From contig NZ_AXWW01000050.1 of the NCBI RefSeq assembly GCF_000482865.1, positions 1 to 64,000 of the forward strand: a stretch of DNA of 64,000 bases. The letters are read 5' to 3'. A program made the position numbers and the translations under genes. Of this stretch, positions 13-33,436 are shown one piece after another. The stretch is from Actinokineospora inagensis DSM 44258 (lineage in GTDB: Bacteria > Actinomycetota > Actinomycetes > Mycobacteriales > Pseudonocardiaceae). Position 1 is the first letter of the stretch, and every line of letters begins with the position of its first letter. The notes below the pieces were generated by a model, which saw only the letters and a program-made list of their open reading frames with translations, ran no database searches and was not told the origin of the DNA.

Positions 13-440
13 CGGTTGATCTTGGTGTGAGGGGGCTCTGGGCCTGGCTGCGCCTCGGGGTTCGGCCTGGTCGCCTTCGGCGACGCCGGCCTCGGGCGCC
101 AGATTTTGCGGGCTGCGCCCGTTGGGGTGGACTTGTTTTGTGTGGGGCCCCTACGGCAACCGCGGGTAAGGCTAAAGGCGGGGCCACTGGAAAGACGTGG
201 CCTTACCCGCCGGAGAGCTTGCGGTCACCGCCTCCCCACACAAAACAAGTCCACCCCAACGGGCGGTTGGTGTCGGCGGGTTTCGAGGCGCGGGGGGCGA
301 GTTGGTCGTGATGCTTTTCCGCCTGGTTGGCGGTTGGTGTCGGCGGGTTCGAGGCGCGCGGGGCCGGTTGGAGGGCTTCGTCGATGGGGCTGGGGGTTTT
401 GGGGCGCGCGGTGCTGGTTGGTGGGCTTTGTCGATGGGGG
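13..440. repeat. Dispersed hairpin repeat, copy A
   Basis: This G/T-rich non-coding segment has a second copy at about 32910-33260. Its core is a perfect inverted repeat with arms 116-147 and 234-265 (32 bp). Inside lies a second perfect stem, 162-172 with 200-210 (GCGGGTAAGGC / GCCTTACCCGC). A block upstream of the arms (about 30-105) and one downstream (264-440) are also shared with copy B. The downstream unit beginning CGGTTGGTGTCGGCGGGTT occurs twice here, at 264 and 330. A GGTTGATCTTGG core at 14-25 resembles the reverse complement of the direct repeat at 17911 and 18323. I see no coding gene; open frames across it are low-complexity. It could be a MITE-like element, a structured RNA or a large terminator. 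Confidence 0.8.
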
Positions 441-2002: not shown

Positions 2003-3286
2003 ATGTCCAGTTCCCGTGAGGGAATCGAGCCGGACCGCAGGCGGCTGCGGGCCCGGGTTGAGGCCGAGGCGTACGTCGCCTCGGTGTGCTTCAAACACGG
2101 CCCGCCCGATCTGCTGGGTGTCGAGTTGGAGTGGGTCGTGCACCACCGCGACGACCCCGGGCGGCGACTCGACCCCGATCACCTGGCCGCCGCCCTCGGT
2201 CCGCACGCCCCCGTCACACTGCGCCACGACAGCCCGCAGTTGCCGTTGCCGTCCGGGTCCCCGCTCACCCTCGAGCCCGGTGGGCAGGTCGAGATCTCCT
2301 CGCTCCCCGCGCCTGCCCTGGCCGCCGTGGTCGACGCCGTCTCCGCCGACCACCGCTACCTCTCCGAACTCCTCGGCCGCGCTGGCCTCGTGCTCGGCGC
2401 CCGCGCCCTGGACGCCCACCGGTCCCCGCGCCGGGTGTTGGACACCCCCCGCTACGCGGCCATGGAACGGGCGTTCGCCCCGATCGGGCGGCACGGCATC
2501 ACCATGATGTGCGCCAGCGCCGGTCTGCAGGTGTGCCTGGACGTCGGGGAGGAGGCCGACCTGCCGACCAGGTGGGCCGCGTTGTCCTCGCTCGGCCCGG
2601 TCCTGATCGGACTGTTCGCCAACTCGCCGGTGTCGTCGGGCAAACCCGGGGCGTCGACCGGCTGGGCCAGCGGCCGCATCCTGCACGTCCTCGGTGTCGA
2701 CCCGCGCCGCACCCGCCCGGTCCCGGTCACCGCGGACCCGGTCGGGGCGTGGAACGACTACGTGCTCGACGCCCCGCTGCTGTGCGTGCGAAGACCCGTG
2801 GGCGGCTGGGACGCCCCACCGGGGGTGACGTTCGCCGACTGGCTGGACGGTGCCTTGCCCGACCCGCCCACCACCGACGACCTCGACTACCACCTGTCCA
2901 CGCTGTTCCCGCCGGTCCGCCCGCACGGCTACTTCGAGGTCCGCTACCTCGACGCGCAGGACGGCGACGACTGGGTGGCGCCTGCCGCGCTGCTGGTGGC
3001 CGTGATGGCCGACCCGGCGACGGTCGACGCCGTCGTGGACGTGTGCGCGCCGGTCGCCGACCGGTGGCTGGACGCCGCCCGGCTCGGCGTCGCCGACCCG
3101 GACCTCGCGCTGGCCGCCCGGCGGGTGCTCGACCTGGGCATCCCGGCGCTGCCCCGGCTCCACCTGCCGCCCGACCACGCCGCCGCCGTCACCGATCGGC
3201 TGGTGGCGCTGCGCGCCGCGCTCGACGCGCCGGGGCGGGCGAACTCGGAAACGAACTCGGACACGGCCCATGGGAGGACGTCGTGA
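2003..3286 (+). CDS. egtA: EgtA, glutamate-cysteine ligase of ergothioneine synthesis
   Basis: This 427-aa member of the GCS2 glutamate-cysteine ligase family makes gamma-glutamylcysteine from ATP, glutamate and cysteine. EgtB uses that product as sulfur donor. Visible family segments are LLGVELEWVV near residue 40 (substrate Glu-binding strand), LEPGGQVEISSLP near 90, MCASAGLQVCLDVG near 170 and GYFEVRYLDAQ near 310. The ATG at 2003 is preceded by a GGGAGG box. The stop overlaps the egtB GTG by 4 bp, so the two are probably translationally coupled. The following genes egtB, egtC and egtD confirm the pathway. The gene diverges from acnR, and its promoter must lie in the 195-bp spacer. Confidence 0.92.
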   Translation: MSSSREGIEPDRRRLRARVEAEAYVASVCFKHGPPDLLGVELEWVVHHRDDPGRRLDPDHLAAALGPHAPVTLRHDSPQLPLPSGSPLTLEPGGQVEISSLPAPALAAVVDAVSADHRYLSELLGRAGLVLGARALDAHRSPRRVLDTPRYAAMERAFAPIGRHGITMMCASAGLQVCLDVGEEADLPTRWAALSSLGPVLIGLFANSPVSSGKPGASTGWASGRILHVLGVDPRRTRPVPVTADPVGAWNDYVLDAPLLCVRRPVGGWDAPPGVTFADWLDGALPDPPTTDDLDYHLSTLFPPVRPHGYFEVRYLDAQDGDDWVAPAALLVAVMADPATVDAVVDVCAPVADRWLDAARLGVADPDLALAARRVLDLGIPALPRLHLPPDHAAAVTDRLVALRAALDAPGRANSETNSDTAHGRTS

Positions 3287-4637: not shown

Positions 4638-5423
4638 ATGTGCCGCCATCTGGGTTACCTCGGCCCCGCCGTGCCCGTGGCCGGTCTGCTGGACCGGCCG
4701 ACCGGGCTGCTGCGGCAGACCTGGGCCCCCGCCGACATGCGCGGCGGGGGCACGGTGAACGTCGACGGGTTCGGCGTCGGCTGGTACGTCGACGGCGAGC
4801 CGGAGCCGGTGCGCTACCGGCGGGCCGTGCCGATGTGGACCGACGCGGCGTTCACCGGCATCGCGGCGGTCACCCGCAGCGCGGCGGTGCTCGCCGCGGC
4901 CCGGTCGGCCACGATCGGGATGCCGGTGGTCGACCAGGCGTGCGCCCCGTTCACCGGGGGGCGCTGGCTGTTCAGCCACAACGGCCGGATCGCCGGGTGG
5001 CCGGGCAGCGTCGCCGACCTGGCCGCCGAACTGCCCACAGTGGACCTGGTGACGCTCGACGCGCCCACCGACAGCGCGCTGCTGTGGGCGCTGGTGCGCC
5101 ACCGGCTGCGCGCGGGCGCGTCGATGGCCGACGCGCTGGCCGGGGTGGTGCTCGCGGTCGCCGACCGCGCCCCCGACTCCCGGCTCAACCTCATGATCAC
5201 CGACGGCGTGACCGTCGCCGCCACCACCTGGTGGCACTCGTTGTCCACGCTCACCGGCCCCGACTTCGTCGTCGTCGCCTCGGAGCCGTGGGACGACGAT
5301 CCACAGTGGACTTCCGTGGCCGACCGCGCGCTGGTCACCGCGAGCCGCACCCCCATCCCCACCGTGCGCGTGCGCGCGCTCGGCAGACCGGACAAGGACG
5401 CCGATGACCGACTCCCGGCTTGA
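4638..5423 (+). CDS. egtC: EgtC, gamma-glutamyl hercynylcysteine sulfoxide amidohydrolase
   Basis: This 261-aa class II glutamine amidotransferase-fold hydrolase removes the glutamyl group from the EgtB product. The start MCRHLGYLG places Cys2 as the N-terminal nucleophile once Met is removed, as in all Ntn amidotransferases. Other family segments are DGFGVGWYVDG near residue 45, the FSHNGRI loop near 115 and the late VVASEPWDDDPQW. It starts 2 bp after egtB stops, and its last 20 bp overlap the egtD start, so it sits within one transcription unit. The pathway is then completed by a PLP-dependent C-S lyase (EgtE), which is not seen in this window. Confidence 0.93.
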   Translation: MCRHLGYLGPAVPVAGLLDRPTGLLRQTWAPADMRGGGTVNVDGFGVGWYVDGEPEPVRYRRAVPMWTDAAFTGIAAVTRSAAVLAAARSATIGMPVVDQACAPFTGGRWLFSHNGRIAGWPGSVADLAAELPTVDLVTLDAPTDSALLWALVRHRLRAGASMADALAGVVLAVADRAPDSRLNLMITDGVTVAATTWWHSLSTLTGPDFVVVASEPWDDDPQWTSVADRALVTASRTPIPTVRVRALGRPDKDADDRLPA

Positions 5424-31902: not shown

Positions 31903-32916
31903 GTGGTCGACGCACTGCTCTGGCTGTCCTTCGGCGGCCCCGATGGCCCCGCTGACGTCCGCCCGTTCCTGGAGAACGTCACCCGCGGCCGCGGCGTGCC
32001 CCCGGACCGGTTGGACGAGGTCGAGGCCCACTACCAGCACTTCGGCGGGGTTTCCCCGATCAACGCCCTCAACCGGTCGGCGATCGCGGCGGTCGAGGCC
32101 GAACTGGTCCGGCAGGGACTGGACCTGCCGGTGTACTTCGGTAACCGCAACTGGCATCCGCTGGTCGAGGACACGGTGGCCGCCATGGCCGCCGACGGGG
32201 TGCGTCGGGCGTTGGTGTTCCCGACGAGCGCTTACGGCGGGTATTCGGCGTGTCGGCAGTACCATGAGGACATCGCGCGGGCTCGCGCATTTGATGGTGC
32301 GCCGGAATTGGTGAAGCTTCGGCAGTTCTTCGACCATCCGCTGTTCGTGGACGCGGTCGCGGACGCTGTTCGGGTTGCCGCGGCTGGGATGCCGGAGGGA
32401 TATCGGTTGGTGTTCACCGCGCATTCGGTGCCGGTGTCCGCTGACCGGACTGCGGGGCCGGACGGGTATCTGTACTCGCGCCAGATCGCGACGGCTGCTC
32501 GGTTGGTTGCTTCCGCGGTGGGAGTTGCCGAGTTTGATGTCGTCTGGCAGTCGCGGTCGGGGCCACCGCAGGTGCCGTGGCTGGAGCCGGACATCGTCGA
32601 CCACATCGGGGCGGTTGAGGCGCCTGGAGTGGTGGTGTGTCCGATCGGGTTCGTCAGCGACCATTTGGAAGTCGTGTGGGATCTGGACACGGAGGCGGCT
32701 GCTCGGGCGGCTGAGCTTGGGATCGCCTTTGCGCGGGCGGGGACGGCTAGTGGTGATCCGCGGTTTGCGGAGTTGGTGGTGTCGTTGATTCGCGAGCACC
32801 TGGATTCTGCGCCTGCGGTGAAGTTGTCGGATCTGCCTGCGTTGGGGTGTACGGCGAATGGGGCGCTGTGTGCGCCGGGGTGTTGTGAGTTGCCTCGGCG
32901 GCCTGGGCCTCGTTGA
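31903..32916 (+). CDS. hemH: Ferrochelatase (actinobacterial coproporphyrin type)
   Basis: A 337-aa enzyme inserting Fe2+ into (copro)porphyrin. Actinobacterial enzymes act mainly on coproporphyrin III and carry a [2Fe-2S] cluster. The expected Cys ligands are visible: one in [10 protein letters not shown] (residue about 117) and three or more in the tail [14 protein letters not shown]. The catalytic His is likely in TAHSVP. The GTG at 31903 follows inhA by 3 bp. The 3' two thirds of the gene (after about 32220) use many more G- and T-ending codons than the 5' third. The TGA stop forms the first bases of the repeat-copy-B flank. Confidence 0.92.
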
Positions 32917-33260
32917 GGGGGTCTCTGGGCCTCGGCTGCGCCTCGGGGGTCGGCCTGGTCGCCTTCGGCGACGCCGGCCTCGGGCGCCAGATAAATACGG
33001 GGTGCCCGCTGGGGTGAAGTTGTTTTGTTTGGGGCCCCTGGCGGTGGCCTGGGTAAGGCTAAAAGGCGGGGCCACTGGAAAGACGTGGCCTTACCCGCCT
33101 GCCGGCTTAGGCCACCGCTTCCCCCAAACAAAACAACTTCACCCCAGCGGGCGGTTGGTATCGGCGGGTTTCGAGGCGCGCGGTGCAAGAATGGAGCTTC
33201 GTCGATCAGGGCTGGGTTTTGGGCGCGCGGTGCGGGCTGGCGGCCTTTGTTGGTGTGGGG
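32910..33260. repeat. Dispersed hairpin repeat, copy B
   Basis: This is a second copy of the element at 13-440, directly after hemH. Perfect 31-bp arms are 33004-33034 and 33122-33152. The arms differ from copy A at four positions, and each difference is matched by a complementary change in the opposite arm, so base pairing is kept. The central conserved block (GGGTAAGGCTAAAAGG then GGGCCACTGGAAAGACGTGG) carries the inner GGGTAAGGC / GCCTTACCC stem. Shared flanks lie on both sides, and the left flank begins at the hemH stop. It may serve as the operon's terminator. Downstream to 33360 the sequence is G-rich without a gene. Confidence 0.82.
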
Positions 33261-33396: not shown

Positions 33397-33436
33397 GCGT
33401 GGGGCCGGGGGTGCAGGGGAACCCCCGGCCCCACGC
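33397..33436 (-). terminator. Hairpin terminator of the 33.4-34.3 kb pair
   Basis: A 16-bp perfect stem (33397-33412 GCGTGGGGCCGGGGGT with 33421-33436) and an 8-nt loop lie just after the stop of the 82-aa gene. Confidence 0.8.

Follow-up and report, generated by a model that had tools for sequence, protein, structure and literature searches.

Hairpin repeats of Actinokineospora inagensis as probable solitary ends of DUF222-HNH mobile elements

Results and Discussion

Two large hairpins in the window

The window analyzed in this study is the whole of a 64,000-nt stretch of Actinokineospora inagensis DSM 44258 (NZ_AXWW01000050.1, positions 1-64,000; genome code G000), and its subject is a large hairpin repeat that occurs there in two copies, each built of a 5' module, an outer stem (P1), a one-sided internal loop, a second stem (P2), an inner region and a degenerate 3' region (Table 1). 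An earlier note on this DNA had described two hairpins with perfect 32- and 31-bp arms, four compensated differences and a retained inner stem, and direct comparison confirmed the description: the left arms of copies 1 and 2 differ at four positions, each mirrored at the matching position of the right arm, and GGGTAAGGC/GCCTTACCC is found in both copies (164-172/200-208 and 33051-33059/33088-33096). Thirty random 64-kb sequences from a first-order Markov model had arms of at most 21 bp (at most 18 bp in 29 of them), compared to 31-32 bp observed, and therefore neither hairpin is attributable to chance. A third hairpin in the window (4696-4910), with 19-bp arms and two mismatches, is near the chance level.

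Table 1. Coordinates of the two hairpin copies and the adjoining gene in the window.
Feature	Position	Strand	Remarks
Copy 1, 5' module	13..115	+	GC-rich, with GTCGCCTTCGGCGAC; conserved, precedes the hairpin; aligned in most of the 44 copies shown
Copy 1, P1 left arm	116..147	+	32 bp, perfect
Copy 1, internal loop CCCCTA	148..153	+	One-sided, conserved; after GGGG
Copy 1, P2 left strand	154..163	+	2 of 10 mismatched in copy 1
Copy 1, inner region GGGTAAGGC...GCCTTACCC	164..208	+	
Copy 1, P2 right strand	221..230	+	
Copy 1, P1 right arm	234..265	+	
Copy 1, 3' degenerate G-rich repeats	266..440	+	Repeated matches to query positions 278-478; outer end ragged
hemH-like gene	31903..32916	+	Stop codon at start of copy 2
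Copy 2, 5' module	32917..33003	+	Begins directly 3' of the stop codon
Copy 2, P1 left arm	33004..33034	+	31 bp, perfect
Copy 2, internal loop CCCCTG	33035..33040	+	Assigned by analogy with other hairpins
Copy 2, P2 left strand GCGGTGGCCT	33041..33050	+	
Copy 2, inner region	33051..33096	+	
Copy 2, P2 right strand AGGCCACCGC	33109..33118	+	Perfect complement
Copy 2, P1 right arm	33122..33152	+	
Copy 2, 3' degenerate region	33153..33260	+	Outer end undefined; single-query match extends to 33271

Copies and covariation in the window genome

The window genome comprises 7,277,107 bases (7.28 Mb) in 97 contigs. A BLAST search with bases 1-480 gave 284 first-look candidates, of which the best 40 were scored and yielded at least 111 matches, many of these belonging to one and the same copy. 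Exact matching of the core identified 18 copies, and a 31-nt core with up to three mismatches identified 136 (68 per strand; control 0); at the same tolerance this core had no match in 60 other genomes, including those of 15 congeners. The hairpin repeat is thus not a two-copy duplication, the recent origin that had earlier been named as telling against selected pairing. Shortness, inverted terminal arms and high copy number are features of miniature inverted-repeat transposable elements. A few copies (L031, L032, L039, L043 and L076) carry an alternative version of the 5' module. Many contig breaks of the genome lie inside repeat copies (e.g., C2:117, C7:6, C29:21, C31:11, C43:116 and C60:38), and one copy (L072; G000:C8, about 1-211) is truncated within its left arm by the end of an open reading frame (ORF) that we take to resemble an IS30-type transposase. 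Insertion specifically at stop codons, a candidate explanation for the start of copy 2 at a TGA, is not general, since the query match of many copies already begins at base 1, ahead of that point.

Across 54 distinct full-length copies, the consensus fold contains 54 pairs, 13 of which show double changes. Column 9 is GC in 27 copies, UA in 26 and UC in one, while column 6 is UA in 29, CG in 20, UG in three, GC in one and CA in one. The outer arms are Watson-Crick paired at 31 of 31 positions in 32 copies; because the other 22 are imperfect and L076 is a mosaic of left and right arms, compensation is strong without being absolute. Independent divergence of the arms, which would argue against paired change, is seen at column 14, which on a parsimony reconstruction over an inner-core tree changed 12 times on the right side and three times on the left.

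Arms kept alike by recombination or hairpin-templated repair, with pairing itself unselected and the copy number produced by illegitimate recombination between repeats, would also give paired changes. Consistent with this explanation are the scarcity of one-sided intermediates at the main polymorphic pairs (a single copy at column 9), the likeness of copies within a genome although a site shared between species carries different arms, and the 15 and 13 changes of paired state reconstructed at columns 6 and 9 with nearly equal left and right counts; the inner-core tree is weak, and recombination would give the same pattern. However, the arms drift apart at column 14, the internal stem P2 covaries as well, and homogenization predicts neither the conserved loop motif nor the inward-facing hairpins beside DUF222 ORFs described below. 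We therefore consider homogenization without selection very improbable.

The same plan with other letters in relatives

A covariance model (R1) built only from the 54 copies of the window genome, with no DUF222 element included, had matches in 14 of 150 family genomes, that of A. inagensis included. The hairpins of the relatives are 112-150 bp long and share a plan: P1 of 17-31 bp with GGGG or GGAG at its inner end, a one-sided loop (e.g., CCCCT or CCTCT), a 10-bp P2, an inner region, often AGCTTA ahead of the right strand of P2, and the right arm of P1. In most other genomes the loop motif is GGRGCCYCT, the counterpart of GGGG plus CCCCTA in window copy 1. Twenty-five hairpins were extracted, and 22 from 14 genomes were analyzed after one empty extraction and two mis-extracted as whole elements had been left out. 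Their P1 stems contained 535 Watson-Crick pairs of 558, two G.U pairs and 21 mismatches, and their P2 stems 10 mismatches and one G.U among 220 pairs, with 19 of the 22 P2 sequences distinct and a mean pairwise identity of 0.37. In G022, an inner stem (P3) occurs in two versions, both complementary, in otherwise similar hairpins (L275, L276 and L277 versus L266).

When 23 hairpins from 14 genomes were aligned (A6), with pairs named after inspection of the alignment, 90.2% of cells were paired compared to 67.2% after shuffling. These percentages are inflated, because the majority of the hairpins came from a search with a pairing-rewarding model; of the eight Kutzneria element ends (LE/RE) in A6, however, four (from G095 and G145) belong to loci picked by DUF222 and not by the hairpin model. 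Double changes occurred at 22 of 27 pairs, and the covariation score was 0.612, compared to 0.193 for shuffled alignments and at most 0.146 for slid structures. P1 showed no one-sided changes, yet 15 of 391 cells were unpaired. Since MAFFT misaligns P2 of the G000 and G022 rows across genera, G022 was excluded from A6 and from the second model (R2), and the A6 percentages for P2 are probably underestimates. The proposal that pairing is either selected or actively homogenized, made originally for two copies, is now supported by the 54 copies of one genome and these 23 hairpins. The arm sequences differ between species yet remain complementary, as if the fold were kept more than the sequence.

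R2, with 12 candidates scored per genome, had matches in 53 of 297 family genomes, in 10 of 46 genera and in 15 of the 16 genomes of the window genus (all except G012). Searching the genome and its relatives, as the earlier note had proposed, has thus taken the family from two hairpins to 136 copies in A. inagensis (by the 31-nt core) and to these 53 genomes (by covariance model). P1, the GGRGCCYCT loop and P2 are all present in the hairpin, as they are in the DUF222-linked relatives.

Inward-facing hairpins beside DUF222 ORFs in other genera

In most loci of Kutzneria (genus g20; Pseudonocardiaceae), an ORF encoding about 360-386 amino acids follows the hairpin. All five ORFs tested, one of them from genus g50, matched Pfam DUF222 (E 1.1e-14 to 4.5e-23) and no other Pfam family, and none had an NCBIfam family match. 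The C-terminus of the linked ORF carries what we take to be an HNH-type pattern, which Pfam does not report; the ORFs of L213 and L215, with unusual C-termini, were left out of the protein alignments. Among the fold-search matches listed there was no IscB or Y1 fold, a result that carries no evidential weight either way.

All five G176 loci found by way of the hairpin have an inverted hairpin on each side of the ORF. Sixty loci were chosen by DUF222, and 48 of these belong to linked subfamilies, where a 5' hairpin stands beside the ORF in 14 of 18 loci (G176), five of 10 (G145), six of seven (G095) and 13 of 13 (G022), and a 3' hairpin in 10 of 18, seven of 10, seven of seven and six of 13, respectively; by terminal sequence, 3' ends were recognized in 10 of the 13 G022 loci. 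The remaining 12 gave none, namely six from G034, two of another type from G022, L264 (G176) without such a hairpin, L265 with no DUF222 match to the query, and L291 and L292, for which the wrong sequence range had been taken. Of 30 loci returned by a DUF222 search, three had such a hairpin, all from G022. All motif-typed 5' and 3' hairpins of the DUF222-chosen loci face inward, and R1 detects both element ends in G022 and in Kutzneria.

R2 was built without genera g53, g57 and g8, and it finds hairpins adjoining DUF222 in genera outside its training set. For each of the seven best-scoring hairpins of G073 (g57), a DUF222 ORF begins 102-227 nt to the inside, with no second hairpin seen past the ORF. 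By distances worked out by hand among the matches listed, six of 12 hairpins in G069 (g53) lie within about 400 nt of a DUF222 ORF, one ORF being flanked on both sides; three hairpins in G181 (g50) lie beside two DUF222 ORFs, one of them flanked on both sides with the farther hairpin about 1.1 kb off; and two hairpins in G073 adjoin DUF222. All 11 of these DUF222-adjacent hairpins face inward. Inward hairpins thus stand beside a DUF222 ORF in five other genera, Kutzneria among them, and on both sides of it in four, spanning about 1.5-2.4 kb. No DUF222 was present among the first two inward ORFs at four of four hairpins in G061, three of three in G187 (one at a contig end), four of four in G269 and one of two in G069, and many DUF222 matches without any R2 match were found in G017, G018, G021, G023 and G030. 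Pairs of the opposite, back-to-back orientation ('<' then '>'), about 80-170 nt apart, were observed at L159 (G009, 2725-3142), L099 (G000) and L148 (G003).

Sites and gene context in the window genus

The gene upstream of copy 2, which we take to be hemH, offers a site that can be compared between species. G000, G015, G006 and G002 have hairpins 3' of it that differ in their arms, and two of these hairpins are inverted; in G012, G003, G005, G007 and G014 the same next gene follows after 74-186 nt with no hairpin; and in the other seven genomes the gene that comes next is a different or unidentified one or, in the case of G009, the site holds another insertion. The G009 gap (L427) holds a repeated unit, GTCCCCGCGC..GCGGGGCTGGTCC, presumably a CRISPR-like array, where other species carry a hairpin or nothing. 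At one further site, common to G000, G009, G004 and G008, the flanks are 84-89% and 76-82% identical and the arms are different.

Among 67 distinct copies of the window genome, 51 could be placed between genes called by a simple codon-usage caller rather than a standard tool (13 at contig edges and three without an upstream gene were dropped; one copy overlapped a called ORF). Of these, 25 lie between convergent, 23 between codirectional and three between divergent genes, while the window's own 43 gene gaps include eight convergent and 11 divergent; convergent placements make up 12 of 19 in G003 and 13 of 19 in G009. The many hairpins between convergent genes, a setting like that of the ERIC/NEMIS intergenic stem-loop repeats, would suit large bidirectional terminators or mRNA-stability elements that have spread incidentally, and a large terminator had been among the earlier suggestions. 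However, there is no T-run directly 3' of the arms (after 265 and 33152); a separate GC-rich hairpin (33399-33433) stands ahead of the convergent gene beside copy 2, with similar ones in the same place in congeners lacking the element; and inward hairpins beside DUF222 ORFs would be left unexplained. A terminator function is therefore extremely unlikely.

Strand polarity of arm mismatches

The mismatch data cover 21 genomes, with 215 distinct hairpins and 5,769 P1 pairs. The non-Watson-Crick cells on the '>' strand were 160 A.C, 29 G.T and 74 other; G009 contributed 85 of the 160 A.C cells, and G022 was balanced (15 A.C and 18 G.T). When each combination of genome, position and letters was counted a single time, 43 A.C and 10 G.T events remained (binomial p=5.6e-6, which treats related genomes as independent), divided into 29 versus 2 in the window genus and 14 versus 8 in other genera (p=0.29); with genomes collapsed, the ratio was 20 to 9 (p=0.06). 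An A.C cell reads as G.T on the opposite strand, so that in the window genus wobble pairing is preserved on the complementary strand. Selection there thus seems to act on a single strand, either RNA or folded DNA; deamination biased between the strands could produce a polarity of the same sign.

This polarity bears on whether the repeats are genes for a structured non-coding RNA, either a transcript to which the DUF222-HNH protein of relatives binds, or a domesticated 3'-UTR or processing element in the window genus. A folded single strand would account for the excess of A.C on the '>' strand (G.U on the complementary strand), for the conserved internal-loop motif and for the covariation of P2 and, in G022, of P3. 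The presence of hairpins in nearly all window-genus genomes, mostly without DUF222, and the preference for gene 3' ends (25 convergent compared to three divergent placements) point the same way. Nevertheless, the polarity is unclear outside the window genus, weakens when genomes are collapsed and draws more than half of its A.C cells from G009, while G022 is balanced; strand-biased deamination could mimic it. In addition, symmetric use at both ends is expected of a DNA terminal repeat, codirectional contexts show no strand preference (13 '--' versus 10 '++'), and Rfam gave no match at gathering score within the window. Of the earlier suggestion of a structured RNA, a folded single strand thus fits the window genus and a known RNA family was not found; overall, we regard the RNA explanation as unlikely but by no means negligible.

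Solitary ends of mobile elements

In the most probable explanation, to which we assign a probability of about 0.68, both window copies represent ends of DUF222-HNH mobile elements that stand alone, are non-autonomous and have been conserved for their fold. The palindromic mobile element suggested earlier gains support from the copy number, the presence or absence of hairpins at the hemH site and the inward hairpins beside DUF222 elsewhere. Weighing against this explanation, the DUF222 search of the window genome gave no match, and no DUF222 ORF lies between inward hairpins there. Near its three HNH genes there is no hairpin core match, the search having covered no other transposase families, Y1 included. 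Of 15 congeners, 13 likewise lack DUF222; the exceptions are G003 (one match) and G007 (two), and the one locus examined in each had no flanking hairpin. Given the lack of DUF222 in their genome, the window copies are solitary, and hairpins are solitary throughout the window genus as far as seen. For a linked mobility gene, one of the checks proposed at the outset, the search for DUF222 and HNH genes thus gave no candidate beside a hairpin in the window genome, and DUF222 ORFs adjoining hairpins are the candidates in other genera.

In such elements, the DUF222-HNH protein would recognize and cut DNA at or near the hairpin ends, copies would spread by cutting followed by repair copying, and solitary hairpins would be non-autonomous passengers. 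The folded form may be what is recognized, hence the retained complementarity, and hairpin-templated repair possibly helps to keep the arms perfect. The flanks of the hairpins are degenerate G-rich repeats, mutually similar in inverted orientation at both ends; such tandem-like repeats were seen at 266-440 and in G003, G009, G022 and G176. At a single end, L272, the boundary seems to be sharp (ATGACGAGC in G022). The ends examined showed no target duplication, and together with the ragged ends this would favor recombination or repair copying over precise cut-and-paste.

Conceivably, DUF222-HNH proteins are mobile nucleases of a class of their own, for which the hairpin itself, in the form of RNA or of folded single-stranded DNA, serves as cofactor or recognition element. 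We give this idea a slim chance, lowered somewhat because the polarity is clear in the window genus only. If true, it would represent a hairpin-ended counterpart of IscB-omega RNA, with solitary hairpins able to outlive the nuclease and to go on spreading across a genus.

Significance and comparison with known systems

DUF222 is numerous in parts of the family (55 matches among the best 55 candidates scored in one Kutzneria genome), and the inward hairpin ends give one DUF222 group the anatomy of a mobile element and a concrete, testable substrate. In addition, the hairpins show with unusual clarity how arms can change between species with Watson-Crick pairing kept, and this covariation makes the selected form (RNA, folded single-stranded DNA or duplex DNA) testable.

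Several known systems share individual features with the repeats described here. IS200/IS605 elements and REP-RAYT systems likewise have hairpins at their ends and give rise to short derivatives that are non-autonomous; the present elements differ in having a DUF222 protein with an HNH-like end and hairpins of 112-150 bp, inverted at one end relative to the other. In IscB and its omega RNA (HEARO), too, a mobile element that codes for an HNH nuclease is accompanied by a structured nucleic acid, but the protein linked here is DUF222 alone in Pfam, its PDB profile match to the HNH part of IscB is not significant (E 0.65), and Rfam scans for HEARO RNA gave no match in the window at gathering score and none at E<=1 in five loci. 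In integron attC sites, the arms vary freely if paired and unpaired bases are fixed; no integrase or cassette context was seen here, where the site is instead repeated at both element ends.

Literature searches of incomplete coverage found nothing joining REP13E12 with hairpin, 13E12 with inverted repeat, Kutzneria with HNH endonuclease, or DUF222 with HNH endonuclease and actinobacteria, which is weak evidence of novelty. REP13E12/HNH endonuclease/DUF222 sequences are counted among mycobacterial repetitive elements (PMC10589994), and REP13E12 regions are said to be without defined biological function (PMC13061034). The likeness lies in DUF222-HNH; the parts of these two papers available to us do not mention hairpin ends, and the window genome has hairpins and no DUF222 gene, a comparison made with the mycobacterial copies by description only. 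ERIC, NEMIS, Ype and Efa are intergenic repeats that, in the portion of the source consulted, may fold into hairpins (PMC1590033). Compared to these, the arms of the present repeats change between species but remain complementary, and relatives of the repeats face inward beside a nuclease-like gene.
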